DNA of 34,577 nucleotides, from IMG/VR virus record IMGVR_UViG_3300022871_000058, positions 1-34,577 of that record, one strand, 5' to 3'. Position numbers and translations under genes: made by a program. Shown here one piece after another: positions 1 through 34,577 of the stretch (positions are counted from its first letter, which is position 1; every line of letters begins with the position of its first letter). The notes below the pieces were generated by a model. The model was not told the origin of the DNA. It was given only the letters and a program-made list of their open reading frames with translations, and ran no database searches. Source of the stretch: a virus.

Positions 1-141
1 AGTAGATTTGGTATGTCATACTCACAATCTATACTATTTTTGTTTGGTGAAATAGATAAGCTTGAACAGGAAGCGTTGAAGGATAGAAGGAACTATGTTT
101 TAGCTATAGCTAAACTTGAAGAACATGGAATTAAGTTTTAG
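1..141 (+). CDS. 3' part of small unknown gene (complete copy at 34269-34472)
   Basis: The reading frame is open from base 1 to a TAG at 139-141 and encodes the last 46 residues of a 67-residue protein. The complete copy lies at the other end of the window. The two copies differ by one base in the overlap (121 G versus 34452 A), giving Glu versus Lys four residues before HGIKF. The product is Lys/Glu-rich and probably helical. It is truncated only because the contig was opened here. Function is not recognised. Confidence 0.75.
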   Translation, partial: SRFGMSYSQSILFLFGEIDKLEQEALKDRRNYVLAIAKLEEHGIKF

Positions 142-442
142 GTGATAAGAATGGATAAACCAAGGTTAGAAGCAATAGACTGTTTTTGTCAAGAAATTAA
201 TGATAATGAACATTTTATAGAATATTATAATACAATATCTACTGATGACCCATATGAAAATAAAAATGTTTTTAGACAAGACCAATTAAAAGCTCGTCTT
301 GAGTGGTTGATTGGTACTACCACACCTACTTTATATGATGCTGGAAACACACCAGGCGAAGTAGATGATGAACATAAATTTATATCAATAAAACAAATTA
401 AAGAATCATTCAGTGAGATTCTAAACGGTGATAAGAATGGAT
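141..442 (+). repeat. 286-bp cassette bounded by 16-bp direct repeats
   Basis: The 16-mer GGTGATAAGAATGGAT occurs at 141-156 and 427-442. Each copy contains a Shine-Dalgarno and a start codon. In the second copy of this locus at the window end (34472-34487) only one 16-mer is present, and sequence jumps directly from the position equal to 156 to the one equal to 443. One repeat plus the gene between is therefore absent in that variant, as expected for recombination between the direct repeats. Confidence 0.85.
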
Positions 443-6744: not shown

Positions 6745-7680
6745 ATGAAACTAATAAAAGAGAATGACAGACGTATTGTACAGGGTTATGGTTCAGTAGA
6801 AGTATTGGATCGCCAAAATGAATTAATTCCGATTGACGAAATAAGGAAGTTCATGAGGACTTATATTAAACGTGGCGCTCCGTTGATGTATAATCACACT
6901 AATCAGTCTGTAGGGAAGCTTATTGATTACGAAATAGTAGAGAAGAATAATAAACCTGCTATTTTAATCAAAGCCGAAGTATACGACGATTATCCAGAAG
7001 ACGATGATATTTGGGACAAAGTTAATTCTAACATTATTACTGGGTTTTCTATAGGGGGCGGCCGTCCGGAACGTAAAGTTACCAAAGAGGGGGCTGTGTT
7101 ATACAATACTCCTGTGTGGGAATTTAGTCTAGTTGAGAGACCAGCAAATCAGATGTCTACTATAACGGCACATAGTGTGGCTAAATCTGATAATAGTGAG
7201 ACATTATTTGTACCATTATCCAAGGCTTGTGATGAACAAATTAAACCTGAAGTTAAAGACAAAAAGATTAATGAGGTGGAAACTATGGTAGTTAAAGAAG
7301 AAGCTCCTAAGGAAGAAACTCCTACATTGGAATCTCGTGTTGATGTATTAGAAAAAGCATTAGTAAAAATACAAAAAGCAGATGAAGAAGTTAAGGAAGC
7401 TCCAAAGGAAGAAGATAAAAAAGAAGAAGTAGCAAAAGAAGAAGCTCCAAAAAAAGAACCAGCTGCTGAAGAAGATAAAAAAGAAGATATAAAAGACATG
7501 CAAAAAGCAATGATTTCAGCTATAGCAGAAGGCTTCGCAAATTTAAAGAAATCCGATAAGAAAGTAGAAGAGCCAAAAGTTGAAAAGAACATTAAGAAAA
7601 AAGTTGAATTACCAGTGAAAAAATCAGCTAGTAATGATTTCAACGACTTCTTAGTTAAAGTAGGAGCTAGAGGTGAATAG
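6745..7680 (+). CDS. HK97-type prohead protease fused to scaffold
   Basis: A serine protease that matures the prohead. It encodes 311 residues. The protease domain (1-145) has GYGSVEVLDRQNE, His51 (MYNHT), Ser102 (GFSIGGG) and WEFSLVERPAN, the known catalytic landmarks. Residues about 175-290 are Glu/Lys/Ala-rich low-complexity coiled coil typical of a scaffold or delta domain, ending in a basic tail. The protein is longer than a bare protease (usually about 200 residues). It precedes the major capsid gene by 2 bp; the SD for that gene overlaps its 3' end. Confidence 0.92.
   Translation: MKLIKENDRRIVQGYGSVEVLDRQNELIPIDEIRKFMRTYIKRGAPLMYNHTNQSVGKLIDYEIVEKNNKPAILIKAEVYDDYPEDDDIWDKVNSNIITGFSIGGGRPERKVTKEGAVLYNTPVWEFSLVERPANQMSTITAHSVAKSDNSETLFVPLSKACDEQIKPEVKDKKINEVETMVVKEEAPKEETPTLESRVDVLEKALVKIQKADEEVKEAPKEEDKKEEVAKEEAPKKEPAAEEDKKEDIKDMQKAMISAIAEGFANLKKSDKKVEEPKVEKNIKKKVELPVKKSASNDFNDFLVKVGARGE
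7285..7680 (+). CDS. Possible internally started scaffold protein
   Basis: Inside the protease gene an in-frame ATG at 7285 follows GAGGTGGAAACT, a Shine-Dalgarno as good as those used by true genes. Initiation here would make a 131-residue scaffold-only protein starting MVVKEEAPKEE, separate from the protease-scaffold fusion. Lambda C/Nu3 uses the same arrangement. The site falls exactly at the boundary between protease and scaffold, which argues against chance. Confidence 0.5.
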   Translation: MVVKEEAPKEETPTLESRVDVLEKALVKIQKADEEVKEAPKEEDKKEEVAKEEAPKKEPAAEEDKKEDIKDMQKAMISAIAEGFANLKKSDKKVEEPKVEKNIKKKVELPVKKSASNDFNDFLVKVGARGE

Positions 7681-7682
7681 AT

Positions 7683-8834
7683 ATGGCTTACACAAATTTA
7701 GACGCATTACCAAGATTCAACACTCTTGAAGATCAATTTAGTTATTATTATGAAGCAGCAGTTAAGAAATCTGATGACCCGATTATTTCAACAACATCAG
7801 GTATGATTAACGCTAGATACGGAATGGAATTATTTTCCGCATTATCTCAAGAAGCTAACGCATTCGGAATTTTACCTAAATTCTCATACACTAGAAAAGG
7901 TTTCAGAGCTATAACAGCAAACGAAGCAACTAGTGCAGGTGCAGCAGAAAACGCTAACTGGCCTGAAACAGACAAACCAGATGTTACAGAAGTATCTGTA
8001 GCTTTGAAAAATGTTAGAACTCCTTACGATATTTCAATGCAAGAAATGATTTACGAAGGTAATGATGACACTGTATCTAACGCTGACTTACACAAATATT
8101 ACGGTGTTAGACACGCAAGTGTAATCAACGGTCAATTAATGGCTACTAACGGAACTTTAGCTTCAAACAATTTCGAAAGTTTAGACCGTGTTTGTGGTTC
8201 ATACTCTGAGGTAACTAACTGTACAGATGCAGCAGCTGGTGCATACTCCGCTGGAGACTTAGATATTTACTCACAAGACAGAGACGCAGCTGTAAGTTGG
8301 GTTGATGCTTATGTTGATCATAACAGCTCAGTAATGAGAACTTTTAGTTTAGACTTAATCGTAGATGCATTCGGTGAAGTTGAAGTATACGGTGGAAAAA
8401 CAAATGTTATTATGACAGGTAAAGATACATGCGCTGACATTGAAAAAGAAGCAGATGTATATGTTAGATATAACATGACTGGTGGAGCATTAAAATCTTC
8501 ATTTGTTAGCTTAGGTGTTAACGGTGTACAAACTATTGAAGGAACTGGAAAAGGAACTAGAACTGCTGAATTATATGGTGTACCTTTATTTAAATCTAAA
8601 GACACAGTAGCAGAATCAACAGGTTCAAGTAGAATTTACGGTTTAGACACAGGAATTAATGAATTGGGTGTAACTCCAAAAGTAGGAATTAAAATGGGAA
8701 TGCCTCCAAAGAGATTCGTAAGTGAAGATGTTTTAGGAAATAATAACTTAGCTGTAAAATACGGTTATGCAACTATTGCTGAATTACAATGTGAAATCTT
8801 CAGACATCAATGGAAAATTAGAGATTTAGCTTAA
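7683..8834 (+). CDS. Major capsid protein (HK97 fold)
   Basis: It encodes 383 residues and starts AYTNLDALPRFNTLEDQF. It follows the protease-scaffold gene immediately, as in HK97-type viruses. Features include an N-terminal helical region, GFRAITANEATSAGAAENANW (about 78-98, resembling the E-loop region) and alternating strand-rich A and P domain sequence. Codon use is unusually regular (mostly GCA/GCT, AGA, GAA), consistent with a highly expressed gene, and a poly-T terminator follows. Identity rests mainly on position and composition. Confidence 0.88.
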   Translation: MAYTNLDALPRFNTLEDQFSYYYEAAVKKSDDPIISTTSGMINARYGMELFSALSQEANAFGILPKFSYTRKGFRAITANEATSAGAAENANWPETDKPDVTEVSVALKNVRTPYDISMQEMIYEGNDDTVSNADLHKYYGVRHASVINGQLMATNGTLASNNFESLDRVCGSYSEVTNCTDAAAGAYSAGDLDIYSQDRDAAVSWVDAYVDHNSSVMRTFSLDLIVDAFGEVEVYGGKTNVIMTGKDTCADIEKEADVYVRYNMTGGALKSSFVSLGVNGVQTIEGTGKGTRTAELYGVPLFKSKDTVAESTGSSRIYGLDTGINELGVTPKVGIKMGMPPKRFVSEDVLGNNNLAVKYGYATIAELQCEIFRHQWKIRDLA

Positions 8835-25153: not shown

Positions 25154-26662
25154 TTACGCATCCATTCTTCCCAATAGTATATTATTTATCCTTAAAATAG
25201 ATTTTGTTACTTCCATCGCACTATTTAAAGCTTGTACTTTAATTAATAATGGTTCTATTACTTCTGACATATCAGCCGCTGTTCCGTTCATTACATCTAT
25301 GCCTACATTTGTGTTGTTCTTATTCTGTGATCTTGCCTTTAAGAATGTTTCAAACTGATTAGATCCTGAACTTGTAGCTAATGACATTGGTATAATCTCA
25401 ATAGCTTCAGCTAATTTCTGTATTATTAATTGTTCAATACCCTCAAATTTTAATGCGTAATCTCTTAGTTTATTAGCTACTGCTAACTCACAAGATCCTG
25501 CACCAGTTAGTATTAAATTACTCTTCTTAATTGAATCTACAACTTTAATAGCGTCCTCTATGCTTCGTTCCATTTCTTCTATGAAACTATTATTAGTACC
25601 TCTAATAATTATTGTTCGTGCTTTAGTGTTTTTATTAGTTATTTTAGCGTATTCTTCACCGTATTTATTGACAACTTTAAAACTACCTACACCTAATTGA
25701 AAAGGGTTTAAATCTTTAATACTATTAACCACACTAGCACCAGTAATTTTAGATATATGTTCTAAGTCTTCCATCTTAACTCTCTTAATACATGATATTC
25801 TTTCTTTTGTTAAGTAGTCTTTAACAATATCAGACACCATTCCGTTACATAACACAACGTCAGCACCTATTTTTTTAATACTAGATACTATTTCCCTTGA
25901 CAATAATTCTTCTTGATCCATATAAGTTGATAATTGGCTAGGGTCTGACATATTTATATCAGGAACTTTAACTACTAACTCTCTATTAATTAATAAAAAG
26001 TGCGCTACTGGTTTATCTTTTGACATATCTTTATGTATTAATTCCTTATCAATAACAAATCCTTTTACAGTTTCAATTTCATTAGCGCTTGATCCTTTAA
26101 TAGTACAAGTAAATGTGGTATCCTTGCTATCAATATTTCTAAGTGCTGCTGCTACATCCTTAAATAATTTAGGTTTACCTGCAATCTTACCTGTTAATGT
26201 AGTCTTAACTATATTCTCTATATCTTCATCCTTAACTTTACGAGATAATTCTTTATAATATTTAATTGCTTCATCAATACCGATCTCGTAAGTATCAATA
26301 ATCTTCTGTGGGTGTTGGTTATATGGTGACTTTCTCAATTCTCCAGCTTTCTTTAGTAAAGCACCTGTCAATACTATTGAACTGGTAGTCCCGTCTCCTA
26401 CTTCTTCATCCTGTGTTCTAGCAATATCAACTAACATCCTAGAAATAGGATTATCAATATTAAGTTTTTGAATTATAGTAGCACCGTCATTAGTTATTGT
26501 TGATTTATCTGAACCTTGGAATAAAATTAGTTTGTCCATACCTTTTGGACCTAGTGTTGTTGCTAACTCATCAGCTGTAGCTTCTACAACCATTGAATTT
26601 TGTGTTAAAGCATCAATACCACGAGCTTGTGAATTGATTGGTTTTGCATTATTTTCTGTCAT
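25154..26662 (-). CDS. Viral group II chaperonin (thermosome subunit)
   Basis: An ATP-driven folding chamber subunit of 502 residues. Equatorial motifs are present: TTLGPKGMDKL (35-45), TNDGATI (57-63), VGDGTT (88-93), catalytic D370 in ERSIEDAI, GAGSCELAVANKL (387-399) and ILRINN (489-494, where cellular proteins have ILRIDD). The apical domain (190-330) retains the helical protrusion region that acts as a built-in lid. It is slightly shorter than cellular subunits and lacks the Gly-rich C-tail. It has its own TATA box and AAGGGGTG. Probably folds virion proteins or replaces host subunits. Confidence 0.93.
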   Translation of the reverse strand: MTENNAKPINSQARGIDALTQNSMVVEATADELATTLGPKGMDKLILFQGSDKSTITNDGATIIQKLNIDNPISRMLVDIARTQDEEVGDGTTSSIVLTGALLKKAGELRKSPYNQHPQKIIDTYEIGIDEAIKYYKELSRKVKDEDIENIVKTTLTGKIAGKPKLFKDVAAALRNIDSKDTTFTCTIKGSSANEIETVKGFVIDKELIHKDMSKDKPVAHFLLINRELVVKVPDINMSDPSQLSTYMDQEELLSREIVSSIKKIGADVVLCNGMVSDIVKDYLTKERISCIKRVKMEDLEHISKITGASVVNSIKDLNPFQLGVGSFKVVNKYGEEYAKITNKNTKARTIIIRGTNNSFIEEMERSIEDAIKVVDSIKKSNLILTGAGSCELAVANKLRDYALKFEGIEQLIIQKLAEAIEIIPMSLATSSGSNQFETFLKARSQNKNNTNVGIDVMNGTAADMSEVIEPLLIKVQALNSAMEVTKSILRINNILLGRMDA

Positions 26663-29930: not shown

Positions 29931-30682
29931 TACTCATCACCTGACCCTAGTTCCTCTTTAGATAATTTTATTTCATCTTCTTTAACATTATATTTCATAA
30001 ATAATCCACCTAAGCTAATTAAGTTATATGTGATATTATTATCAATAGTAATAATTGCAGATATATAATATTTATTTTTTCTAAACCAACTATATCTATC
30101 AGGTATATATTCAACTATATCATCTATTCTAACAAAGTCAGGCGCTTGTAAGAGTTTATCTGGTGGTGTAATCAATGAAAACTCAATAGGCTCAACTGTT
30201 TTAAATGCTTTTATACCATCAGCAGCTATTTCTACTTCTCCAGTAGGCTTAAATGATCCGCCTATAGATAAACTCTTTGATGATAATATATAAATTAATA
30301 CTTGCCTAGCTTCTTGTGATAAACCTTCTACTGGAAGTTTATTACACTGTTTAGATTTTTGAAGAGAATCTAAACTTTCCAACTTCTCAACTCTTGCTCT
30401 TAGTTTGCATACATCAGAATCGTCTAAGACATCTTCTATATCTGACTTCATATCATCTATGTCATCATCTGTATCATCTAATAATACTTCTAGTTTCTTC
30501 ATCTTTTGTGACAAATCTTTTATTAAAAGTTTGTCGCTCTGTTTAGATTCTTGCAGAGAATTTAAACTTACTTCTAACTCTTTGATTGATCTGAAAGCTA
30601 TATCCAATGTTTCCATACCTAATTTATTATTTATTCTAATTCTTTTCTTATCTACTTTGATCTTATCTAACCATTTACCCAT
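29930..30682 (-). CDS. Coiled-coil protein with a duplicated segment
   Basis: It encodes 250 residues from ATG 30682 (GGTTGTGAT upstream); the upstream in-frame start at 30703 lacks an SD. Residues about 30-125 are coiled coil, broken by a strongly acidic stretch (DDTDDDIDDMKSDIEDVLDD). SLNSLQESKQSDKLLIKDLSQ and SLDSLQKSKQCNKLPVEGLSQ-like segments are a duplicated block of about 22 residues. The C-terminal 100 residues are strand-rich. Function unknown; possibly a scaffold-like or nucleic-acid mimic protein. Confidence 0.62.
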   Translation of the reverse strand: MGKWLDKIKVDKKRIRINNKLGMETLDIAFRSIKELEVSLNSLQESKQSDKLLIKDLSQKMKKLEVLLDDTDDDIDDMKSDIEDVLDDSDVCKLRARVEKLESLDSLQKSKQCNKLPVEGLSQEARQVLIYILSSKSLSIGGSFKPTGEVEIAADGIKAFKTVEPIEFSLITPPDKLLQAPDFVRIDDIVEYIPDRYSWFRKNKYYISAIITIDNNITYNLISLGGLFMKYNVKEDEIKLSKEELGSGDE

Positions 30683-31062: not shown

Positions 31063-31175
31063 TCAATCTCACCTATTTCCTTTCCACATCTAGGACATAA
31101 TATAAAGTGCCCGTCTGTGATTACGTCGTCCTTTGTGAATTGTCCACAATCACTACAATAATAGTCTAACATCAT
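31059..31175 (-). CDS. 38-residue zinc-ribbon microprotein
   Basis: The start is ATG 31175 (or the adjacent ATG 31172), overlapping the stop of the upstream gene. It contains CSDC and CPRC pairs separated by 16 residues, making a complete four-cysteine zinc ribbon. It is translated in series with two other tiny genes. It may bind nucleic acid or a host factor. Confidence 0.68.
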   Translation of the reverse strand: MMLDYYCSDCGQFTKDDVITDGHFILCPRCGKEIGEIE

Positions 31176-31333
31176 CTGTCATCGCCCCATACTGCTTCTG
31201 ATACTTTATAAGATAACTCGCCATAATACTCTTTGAACTTTTCAACTGTTGAGCAATCACTACATACATAGTTCTCATCACTGAAGTCTAACCTTTCAAT
31301 TTTACCACAAATAACACATTTAATTTCTTCCAT
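31172..31333 (-). CDS. 53-residue zinc-ribbon protein, first gene of leftward operon
   Basis: It begins at ATG 31333 about 20-27 bp after a TATA box, so it should be leaderless; no good SD is present. CVIC and CSDC (residues 6-9 and 24-27) form a zinc ribbon, followed by a helical, acidic end (VEKFKEYYGELSYKVSEAVW). As the first gene of the long leftward operon it is likely one of the earliest expressed proteins. Confidence 0.68.
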   Translation of the reverse strand: MEEIKCVICGKIERLDFSDENYVCSDCSTVEKFKEYYGELSYKVSEAVWGDDR

Positions 31334-31349
31334 TGCAACCAATTCCCAA

Positions 31350-31360: not shown

Positions 31361-31457
31361 AATTACTCCTGTATAATAAACATTATTCTAATGTTAATTA
31401 CCTATCTAATAATACAGTATTTGTATTATATTATATAAATATAATATAACGTGAAAG
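31361..31457. other. AT-rich divergent control region with inverted repeats
   Basis: The stretch has no gene and is almost entirely A and T. AACATTA (31379-31385) and TAATGTT (31389-31395) form a 7-bp inverted repeat. TTATATTATA (31426-31435) and TATAATATAA (31440-31449) form a perfect 10-bp inverted repeat with a 4-nt spacer. It lies between divergent promoters and near the MCM gene. It may be an operator or unwinding element. Confidence 0.5.
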
Positions 31458-31520
31458 TATATAAGGGGATATGCCGCTACATATTGTGTTGAGAATTAGT
31501 AGACCACAACATATTGTGGT
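31451..31520 (+). promoter_or_regulatory. Rightward promoter and paired operator-like repeats
   Basis: GTGAAAGTATATAAGG (31451-31466) has BRE- and TATA-like sequence. ACATATTGTG occurs at 31479-31488 and 31509-31518, 30 bp apart (about three helical turns), around the predicted transcript start. The second copy lies in a 7-bp palindrome, ACCACAA-CATA-TTGTGGT (31503-31520). These repeats look like binding sites for one regulator. Confidence 0.6.
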
Positions 31521-31534
31521 TTAAGGAGGAGAAA

Positions 31535-31627
31535 GTGGGGAAAATAGTAATGAGTAGGAGGGTAATCCTTATAGCAAAACCGTCCCCACATATCTCAGAG
31601 TTTTATGTAACTATAGTATGTTATTAA
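31535..31627 (+). CDS. Predicted 30-residue protein behind an ideal Shine-Dalgarno
   Basis: GTG 31535 follows AAGGAGGAGAAA, the strongest ribosome site in the region, and reads to TAA 31627. The product starts MGKIVMSRRVILIAKPSPH and ends FYVTIVCY: a basic start and strand-like hydrophobic end. It is the only rightward gene in this area and lies downstream of the promoter with paired repeats. Also visible is GTGGGGA (31535-31541) pairing with TCCCCAC, so the same DNA may instead form a structured RNA. Function unknown. Confidence 0.5.
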   Translation: MGKIVMSRRVILIAKPSPHISEFYVTIVCY

Positions 31628-31645: not shown

Positions 31646-33649
31646 CTACATTTTCCTATAACATCTAGGTTTGTACTCATAAATGTTACCTGATACTATT
31701 AACTTATTAAGGAAAAAATCTATATCTTCCCCGAACATTTCTTTTATCCTGTCGTATTCTAAATCACTATAGTCGTCAAACGCTTTAGATACTAGGTCTA
31801 ATGTTGTTTTAGCCTCTGTATTCATGCCGCTCTGCAACAAACTTAGGTCTGTTTTAGTATTACGGATCTTAATTCCAGCGGACTCGTAGGAGTCTATTAT
31901 TAACTCTTTAGCAAATAGTAAATCTTCTATATTAATCTCGTTGCTGAACCTTAACTTAGCACTAGCCTCGGATAATCTCTGTATTGTATTAGCTACCCTT
32001 AAATTGAAACCTTTTAAACTCTCAGAACCTTCCTTTATGTTCTTGAATAGATTAAACGCCTCACGCTTATAATCGTTAACTAATTCCTTTGGTACTACTG
32101 GGTTAAACTTCTTAGCGTGACTAATATACTTCCTAATGAAATCAACGTCTAAGTCTACACTGTCATCTATATTATTATTATAACTAAATATAGAGTCGTA
32201 AATATCTTCCATGTTGTCGTTAATTACTGTATTGTCAATTAAGAAGACTAAGTCAAACCTAGATAATAGAGACGGACTGAACGGAAGCTCCTGTATTCCT
32301 TTATGGTTAAATACGTTATTACGAGGATTAGCTGATGCTATAATACTGGTCTCAGTTTTTAGTACTTGGTGTTGGTTGAATTTATGTATGTTAATCTTAC
32401 CGTCTTCCATAGCTGTGTGTAATGAAGCTTTATCGTCATCGCGCATCTTGTCAAACTCGTCAATTAATACTATACCTTTATTACCTAGTACTAATGCTCC
32501 AGGTGTTAAAACAACTTCCTTACTACCCATAAACTCCATTTGCTGAACGGATGCGGTTAATCCTACTCTAGTAGTATCACCACCATTAGCTGTCTGAACT
32601 CTAGGAACTATATTTCTTACACTGTTCATTAGTTCGGATTTGGCTGTACCTGGGTTTCCTACCATCATTAAATGTATCTCACCACGCTTTCTATTATTAA
32701 TGTGTGTTTCACGTGTAACGCCGCCAACTAATTGTAATAGTATAGCTTTTTTAATATTGTCCATACCCTTTACCTTAGGGACAATATACTTAATTAACTC
32801 ATTTACATGGTTATTACTTAGAGCTAATGATTTTAGTTTATCTATATCATTAGGTTCTATTGTGGTATTTTCTAAGCTGTCCTTGTCAGGTTGTATGTCT
32901 ACTACCTCTAAATACCAATCCATTGTAGTGCTTTTATTCTCGTGGTCTTTTAATCGTAAGTACCCTATAAATATATTACTTAACCCTTCCTCAAACCTAT
33001 TAACTAAGTTTTCAGGGATAAAACATTCTAACTGTATGGGCTTAGATGCCATTTCGCTATCCTCGTAAGGCTCTTGTATTAGCAATCTTTGAGTTATTTG
33101 CGTGTCGCAGTGTTCTTTCTTTAATTTAAAGTATTTAGTATTATTACATTCAGCTTCAGGACATTCATATGGCTTCTCTATGTTTAAGCCGTCAATATCA
33201 ATCATGAAAGTAGTCTTACACTTACCGCACTCGTACGCTGCTTTCTTAAGTGTAGGCTTAGGGAAGGTGTGCTGTATCACCATTCCCCTTGCTTGTATTA
33301 GTTTATCTATATGTTTAGTAGTGACCGACCCGAGGTAGACCTTAAGGGGATGGAGATGGTTAGAGGTCGCAACTCGTATATCATCAATTAGTTCCATCCT
33401 TTCCTTGTCTAATTCAGATCGGTCTTCTAGTATACTAATAAAACTTGATTTAATTAAACTGTCCAATTCCTGTGTCCCTAGTTTAGCTTCTTTAAAAATA
33501 GTGTTTGAATCTTGCAGCTCCTTATAGTCTAGTTTGAATATATTATTATTATCCTTATCTATGATATCATCTATATAATCTAAATTATTATCAATCAAAA
33601 AATCTTTTGTATATCGGATTAAAGAATCCATTTCAACCATGCTAACCAT
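31646..33649 (-). CDS. mcm: MCM replicative helicase
   Basis: It encodes 667 residues from ATG 33649, with GGAGGT 8 nt upstream (an in-frame TTG further upstream lies within that SD). The N-terminal domain has the zinc site C141, C144, C163, C168. AAA+ motifs: Walker A VGNPGTAKSEL (330-340), Walker B IVLIDEFDKM (393-402), sensor 1 IIASANPR (436-443) and arginine finger LLSRFD (461-466). The C-terminal end (YSDLEYDRIKEMFGEDIDFFLNKLIVSGNIYEY) reads as a winged-helix domain. It unwinds DNA at the origin. It would form the viral replisome with host proteins, as no viral polymerase is seen. Confidence 0.95.
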   Translation of the reverse strand: MVSMVEMDSLIRYTKDFLIDNNLDYIDDIIDKDNNNIFKLDYKELQDSNTIFKEAKLGTQELDSLIKSSFISILEDRSELDKERMELIDDIRVATSNHLHPLKVYLGSVTTKHIDKLIQARGMVIQHTFPKPTLKKAAYECGKCKTTFMIDIDGLNIEKPYECPEAECNNTKYFKLKKEHCDTQITQRLLIQEPYEDSEMASKPIQLECFIPENLVNRFEEGLSNIFIGYLRLKDHENKSTTMDWYLEVVDIQPDKDSLENTTIEPNDIDKLKSLALSNNHVNELIKYIVPKVKGMDNIKKAILLQLVGGVTRETHINNRKRGEIHLMMVGNPGTAKSELMNSVRNIVPRVQTANGGDTTRVGLTASVQQMEFMGSKEVVLTPGALVLGNKGIVLIDEFDKMRDDDKASLHTAMEDGKINIHKFNQHQVLKTETSIIASANPRNNVFNHKGIQELPFSPSLLSRFDLVFLIDNTVINDNMEDIYDSIFSYNNNIDDSVDLDVDFIRKYISHAKKFNPVVPKELVNDYKREAFNLFKNIKEGSESLKGFNLRVANTIQRLSEASAKLRFSNEINIEDLLFAKELIIDSYESAGIKIRNTKTDLSLLQSGMNTEAKTTLDLVSKAFDDYSDLEYDRIKEMFGEDIDFFLNKLIVSGNIYEYKPRCYRKM

Positions 33650-34061
33650 AAAGGGCGACCTCCGCAAACTTTTAAATAAAACTTAAAAGTATAATAGTTA
33701 TAACAAGCTAGTATATATATGTTTTGTTAGCGTTTAATCAGGACACTAAAAAAAGACCCTAAAAAAGACCATATTTTTAGTTTTTATTGCACATACATAC
33801 TATTTCATACATAGATATATAAAACTAATGATAAATTTAATGGAAACAATAATCTAACAGCAACTGTGTGGAGAACCCTATAGAGTTATTCCTCTATAAT
33901 ATATATACATAATCACGTTATATAATAAAAAAACCTACTGTATACCTTCGGGGCGATACACTGTTAACCCACACCTTACATGAAATGTATAGTATGTGTT
34001 TATAATACTTTTGTATGTTTAGGTTATATTAGCAATAAATAGCTAAAAAAGGAGTGATTTT
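33650..34061. other. Non-coding region, candidate replication origin and divergent promoters
   Basis: About 410 bp hold no credible gene. CTAAAAAAAGACC (33746-33758) and CTAAAAAAGACC (33759-33770) are a tandem iteron-like pair, and CTAAAAA/TTTTTAG (33759-33765, 33774-33780) form an inverted repeat. TATAGAG/CTCTATA (33879-33885, 33892-33898) is a 7-bp hairpin. TACAT/ATGTA occurs near 33980. TATA-like stretches (for example TTTATAATAC near 33999) could drive the rightward early genes. It lies between the MCM gene and divergent early genes, where archaeal origins often lie. Confidence 0.5.
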
Positions 34062-34268: not shown

Positions 34269-34472
34269 ATGGTTAAAGCGGTAACATTGAAAGATGAAGT
34301 GATAACATTATTAAATAGAATTAGAGATGATAGTAGATTTGGTATGTCATACTCACAATCTATACTATTTTTGTTTGGTGAAATAGATAAGCTTGAACAG
34401 GAAGCGTTGAAGGATAGAAGGAACTATGTTTTAGCTATAGCTAAACTTGAAAAACATGGAATTAAGTTTTAG
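34269..34472 (+). CDS. Small helical protein, complete copy of the gene cut at base 1
   Basis: It encodes 67 residues, behind AAGGATGTGAT and adjacent to the previous stop. It is rich in Leu, Lys and Glu and probably all helical, with a hydrophobic middle (SQSILFLFGEIDKLEQEAL). The final two-thirds equal the partial gene at 1-141 apart from Lys versus Glu near the end. It is followed here directly by the 115-residue gene, without the cassette gene. Function unknown. Confidence 0.72.
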   Translation: MVKAVTLKDEVITLLNRIRDDSRFGMSYSQSILFLFGEIDKLEQEALKDRRNYVLAIAKLEKHGIKF

Positions 34473-34577
34473 GTGATAAGAATGGATGAGGAATATTTTA
34501 ACAAGGATTCATTAAAGTATTTCACAATGTATTACTTTCTTATTAAGGATACATCTATTAATATAGATAATTTAATA
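34332..34577 (+). repeat. Terminal redundancy with the window start
   Basis: 34332-34487 equals 1-156 with one mismatch (34452 A versus 121 G), and 34488-34577 equals 443-532 exactly. The contig therefore overlaps itself, apart from the 286-bp cassette. This indicates a circular or circularly permuted genome of about 34,331 bp in the variant with the cassette. Confidence 0.88.
34482..34577 (+). CDS. 5' part of the 115-residue gene (redundant end)
   Basis: ATG 34482 behind AGGTGAT begins the same protein as at 437-784. The 96 bases to the window end (32 codons) are identical to 437-532. It is truncated by the contig end only, and shows that the contig closes on itself at this locus in the variant without the cassette. 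Confidence 0.8.
   Translation, partial: MDEEYFNKDSLKYFTMYYFLIKDTSINIDNLI

Follow-up and report, generated by a model that had tools for sequence, protein, structure and literature searches.

A short island in the genome of a tailed virus that appears to infect an archaeon is probably a promoter under the control of a host repressor of the NrdR type. We favor this reading because the sequence of two 16-bp boxes, their spacing and their position relative to a TATA box, a Shine-Dalgarno (SD) sequence and a start codon all fit. The DNA analysed (hereafter, the window) comprises 34,577 nt with 32.6% GC, and is a single IMG/VR virus record. NrdR has been known so far as a regulator of ribonucleotide reductase (RNR) genes that is rare in archaea (PMC9110341), where it occurs in haloarchaeal nrdR-nrdBA operons (PMC3019208), and a 2014 review described its boxes as absent from archaea (PMC4009431). 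What is new is the presence of such a predicted pair in an apparent archaeal virus devoid of RNR, together with many viral pairs located away from RNR genes.

Architecture of the island

The leftmost feature of the island is an A/T palindrome (TTATATTATATAAATATAATATAA, 31426-31449), an inverted repeat that may hold the TATA region of a divergent leftward operon; the first gene of this operon (31172-31342, minus strand) encodes a CxxC-rich protein of 56 aa from TTG 31342, with an ATG at 31333. A purine-rich upstream element, GTGAAAG (31451-31457, plus strand), lies ahead of a rightward archaeal-type TATA box, AGTATATAAGG (31456-31466, plus strand), and transcription presumably starts at about 31486-31488, at the usual archaeal distance from the TATA box. 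Box 1, CCGCTACATATTGTGT (31474-31489), overlaps this predicted start; box 2, CCACAACATATTGTGG (31504-31519), a near-perfect palindrome, is separated from it by a 14-bp spacer. Downstream, the SD sequence AAGGAGG (31523-31529, plus strand), one of three in the window, stands 5 nt from the GTG of a putative 30-codon open reading frame (ORF), MGKIVMSRRVILIAKPSPHISEFYVTIVCY (31535-31627, plus strand). A possible RNA stem-loop (31535-31589, plus strand), formed by GTGGGGA (31535-31541) and TCCCCAC (31583-31589), would bury the start codon.

An earlier note on this DNA had already placed the rightward TATA box, the AAGGAGG and the 30-aa GTG-started ORF where we find them, as well as two copies of ACATATTGTG spaced by 30 bp (31479-31488 and 31509-31518). 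Its statement that the island lies opposite to the nearby genes also holds, every confidently predicted neighbor gene being leftward. The 7-bp palindrome that it described around one copy exists, and is larger than was claimed, amounting to the 16-mer CCACAACATATTGTGG with one mismatch between its halves; the first ACATATTGTG repeat is also the core of a degenerate 16-bp palindrome. The sequence supports the view of the island as compact and regulatory, with a promoter pointing rightward. It does not support the “tiny autoregulated switch” proposed in the same note: no DNA-binding feature was recognized by eye in the 30-aa ORF, and the repeats match the operator of a host repressor family, NrdR. 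Nor does the element appear to be “undescribed,” since it would represent a known type of operator (NrdR) in an unexpected place.

The NrdR box has the 16-bp consensus acaCwAtATaTwGtg(t), and is normally found in pairs separated by an integral number of helical turns (PMC4009431; PMC4409342). The ACATATTGTG repeats are the cores of two 16-mers, boxes 1 and 2, which match this consensus at 21/24 each and are, jointly, its two best matches in the 34.6 kb; box 1 deviates by a G for A at position 3, which counts against the NrdR reading. Considered together, they form the best pair in the window (42 of 48), a score reached by 0/100 shuffles; 200 order-2 Markov genome equivalents yielded no pair at 42 or 41, and 0.005 per genome at 40 or above, although these statistics take no account of the choice among known motifs, the NrdR motif having been recognized after seeing the sequence. 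Independent tests, namely the archaeal layout and the viral distribution, therefore matter. Counted on its own and tolerating one mismatch, the core ACATATTGTG is no more frequent in the window than chance predicts (5 seen vs. 4.95 expected). NrdR binds box pairs with spacers of 14-17 or 24-27 bp (PMC12051234), and the 14-bp spacer of the island lies inside the first range. When the E. coli nrdA, nrdH, and nrdD promoters were submitted to the same scan they scored 39, 40, and 42, with spacings of 31-32, next to the 42 of the window pair.

The virus and its genome

The window is read as belonging to a tailed virus of an archaeon, and it appears archaeal in sequence because it encodes an MCM helicase (31646-33667, minus strand; Pfam MCM, E 3e-62) and a thermosome-type group II chaperonin (25154-26662; Pfam E 8e-120), because its closest MCMs are those of haloviruses and of Methanocaldococcus fervens tailed virus 1 (MFTV1), and because of its TATA-like upstream sequences and GGTGA-type SDs. 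The nearest relatives of the MCM (haloarchaeal tailed viruses/haloviruses and MFTV1) share about 25-31% with it; the better start of this gene, judged from sequence, is ATG 33649, behind GCGGAGG. Terminase, portal and head protein genes are also encoded. GGTGA- or GGAGG-type SDs are common at gene starts (an SD-like motif is present in 30/47 listed genes), and several starts have archaeal TATA-like upstream sequences; those resembling the TATA box of the island are GTATATAAATG, ahead of the thermosome gene, and TTTTTATATACC, ahead of the gene at 6745.

A single close record was found, IMGVR_UViG_3300023435_000092, which matches the window at 99.99% identity where the two overlap and is therefore uninformative on constraint or RNA covariation. 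Beyond this contig, a DNA search in phages, an MCM protein search in viral and genome contigs and an MCM alignment search returned only MCMs of at most 30% identity, and searching genome contigs with the thermosome, so as to trace the host, gave no confirmed relative. No RNR or NrdR genes were found in the window. The contig is permuted, with window positions 1-156 repeated at about 34332-34487 (99.4%), and in the sister contig the sequence of the window end is followed directly by that from position 427 of the window, with about 270 bp left out; the genome is therefore probably near complete, with ends that differ or are misassembled. Other observations on this genome are a tRNA-Ile (GAT) gene without encoded CCA (1598-1668), an internal repeat with 78% identity (30314-30395 vs. 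30506-30582) within a 257-aa gene, and a YopX-family protein (781-1161, E 3e-26), here in what appears to be an archaeal virus. The YopX family is known mainly from Firmicutes phages.

Counterparts in cellular and viral genomes

Four plasmid-borne haloarchaeal nrdR loci (Natronomonas pharaonis PL131 and relatives) have a TATA box near position 1406, box 1 at 1424-1425 and box 2 at 29-30 bp from it, followed by GGAGG or GAGGA near 1479 and a GTG start. The TATA-to-box 1 and box 1-to-box 2 distances are 18-19 and 29-30 bp in these loci, against 16 and 30 bp in the window (TATA 31458, boxes 31474 and 31504); box 1 of the island begins 8 bp downstream of the predicted TATA box, placing the pair near the predicted start, as in the haloarchaeal nrdR promoters. 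Box 2 of the window is identical at 14/16 positions to box 1 of N. pharaonis nrdR, CCACCACATATTGCGG; the second haloarchaeal boxes are weaker with respect to the consensus, and the pair scores are 32-37. Contrary to the absence from archaea put forward in 2014, these promoters, with their paired NrdR-like sequences, argue otherwise. They share with the window the order TATA, box, 13-14 bp, box, SD, and GTG at similar distances; the island differs in that it precedes a 30-aa ORF in a virus of low GC content, whereas the haloarchaeal promoters serve nrdR and RNR genes in genomes of high GC content. NrdR was not found in the archaeal control genomes, which counts against the NrdR reading, and the other fetched MCM virus loci contained no comparable NrdR boxes (best, 39).

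The box pairs of E. coli nrdAB, nrdHIEF, and nrdDG likewise consist of 16-bp palindromic boxes, about three helical turns apart and with equal score; the window differs from them in being a viral genome with an archaeal TATA promoter and without a ribonucleotide reductase gene downstream. The RNR or nrdR gene usually found downstream of an NrdR operator is thus absent here, but this is a usual association and not a requirement for binding.

Viral contigs were scanned with a strict pair pattern that left the start-to-start spacing free between 20 and 48 bp, and which matched 53 contig stretches with 54 pairs, not all of them independent, as several of the contigs are near-identical. Their spacings were 30-34 (44 pairs), 41-44 (nine) and 21 (one), i.e., the helical phases expected for NrdR, and two scrambled palindromes of like composition used as controls gave 0 and 1 matches, vs. 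53. With the exact ACATATTGTG direct repeat as a second pattern, 33 distinct sequences were obtained, 26 of which fall in the same phases. RNR large-subunit families were detected in 8/50 records of the first set and, above the cut-off, in 0/28 of the second; the resulting 70/78 records without a detected large subunit are an upper bound on true absence, as many of them are fragments. No convincing MCM was present in the other records of the first set (50 records), so the window is the only archaeal case found. Searches of the open literature that combined NrdR with operators of phages or of archaeal viruses (subscription papers and preprints lying outside) turned up neither NrdR boxes in archaeal viruses nor RNR-free viral pairs.

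The proteins neighboring the viral pairs are mixed, including portal, ParB-like, methyltransferase and scaffold proteins and a few HTH repressors. The pairs of bacterial phages without RNR, such as Streptococcus agalactiae phage LF2 and Javan536, resemble that of the window in their phase and in the mostly missing RNR in the record, and differ from it in their bacterial hosts and in their location in regulator regions, where they may serve an XRE regulator. Several bacterial phage pairs appear to overlap a candidate sigma-70 promoter. Two contigs with TATA-like words between their boxes, L004 and L007, were examined as possible archaeal relatives and then dismissed: the terminase of L007 is nearest to those of Paenibacillus/Clostridioides phages, and L004 was ruled out by a DnaB-like helicase ORF recognized by eye. 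The latter, from a bacterial phage, contains tandem repeat units (7979-8070) in which an NrdR-like box is combined with a TATATAA word. In L006, a phage contig of 44 kb that lacks RNR, there are two NrdR-type pairs 458 bp apart (419-462 and 877-920), in a decoy-like arrangement.

Proposed mode of action, product and alternative readings

NrdR loaded with dATP and ATP is a DNA-binding tetramer, whereas ATP alone does not allow binding (PMC12051234). In the mechanism that we infer, the TATA box would drive a rightward transcript, and the two boxes, 14 bp apart, would cover the predicted start site and the beginning of the transcribed region. As long as dATP is ample, host NrdR in its dATP- and ATP-loaded form would occupy the pair and block transcription. 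Viral DNA replication would drain dATP, so that NrdR would be released and the leader and the 30-aa ORF expressed. The sequence, the pair score, the spacing, the archaeal layout and the lack of RNR and NrdR genes in the viral contig are direct readings of the DNA, to which this mechanism adds that the host would possess NrdR, that NrdR would bind the boxes, where the transcript would start and in which direction the promoter would respond.

More broadly, we propose tentatively that NrdR operators detached from RNR genes may be widely carried by bacterial and archaeal viruses, which would use the host dNTP sensor as a clock or as a titration target, in the present case upstream of a microprotein or of a leader RNA. 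The distribution of the pairs suggests that viruses read or disturb this sensor, either tapping into it or soaking it up. In pneumococcus infected with phage SpSL1, no host genes are upregulated more strongly than those of the NrdR regulon (PMC6755750). Viral NrdR pairs offer an explanation for such strong induction in phage infection, and either dATP depletion or titration could account for the SpSL1 response.

Translation of the predicted 30-aa peptide is the weakest step of the NrdR explanation; searches for relatives in the fetched loci gave chance-level matches only, and the burial of the start codon in a stem counts against efficient translation. The pairing of GTGGGGA with TCCCCAC, from which the earlier note suggested an RNA form, is present, and nowhere else does the window have a 7-bp inverted repeat, within 60 bp, that contains five or more G/C. 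The leader and ORF together have a predicted fold of −34.9 kcal/mol (z −3.11; 1/200 shuffles as stable), which gives some support to that suggestion; no Rfam family matched the window above the gathering score. The product of the promoter may be a microprotein, a structured leader or an antisense RNA.

It is unlikely that the product is a structured or antisense RNA which folds back on the start codon that it contains, extends into the 3′ end of the MCM mRNA and lowers MCM expression when dNTPs are short. The stability of the fold, the unique GC-rich stem, the convergence with the MCM gene, which ends at 31646, and the lack of ORF relatives in the fetched loci speak for such an RNA, but the SD is ideal and at the right distance from the GTG, and the fold follows in part from the DNA palindrome of box 2. 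This possibility concerns the output of the promoter, and is compatible with NrdR control.

Distinctly unlikely is a decoy, in which the pair would mainly titrate host NrdR off the host nrd promoters as viral copies accumulate, inducing RNR and raising dNTPs, with the ORF incidental. Most viral records with box pairs lack a detected RNR, contig L006 bears its two pairs in a single poorly coding stretch, and the NrdR-regulon response to SpSL1 (PMC6755750) would be expected; nevertheless, dATP depletion explains this response equally well, and the pair of the window sits exactly at the predicted start with an SD and a start codon after it, as in real nrdR promoters, an arrangement needless for a decoy. 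It is improbable that the pair is the operator of a virus-encoded regulator resembling NrdR boxes by chance. In the streptococcal phages Javan536 and LF2 similar pairs adjoin HTH (XRE-type) regulator genes, and HTH-type matches occur in a few of the 53 neighboring proteins, and part of the viral pairs may thus be bound by regulators of the phages themselves; the island, however, has no HTH gene beside it, its neighbors being CxxC-rich small proteins and MCM, and NrdR fits in sequence, spacing and archaeal layout. That the motifs came together by chance in AT-rich intergenic DNA is highly improbable: short motifs recur in such DNA, the 10-mer alone is not over-represented and the NrdR match was recognized post hoc, but the pair expectation is <0.005 per genome and across viruses this family of pairs is real and keeps to the helical phases.
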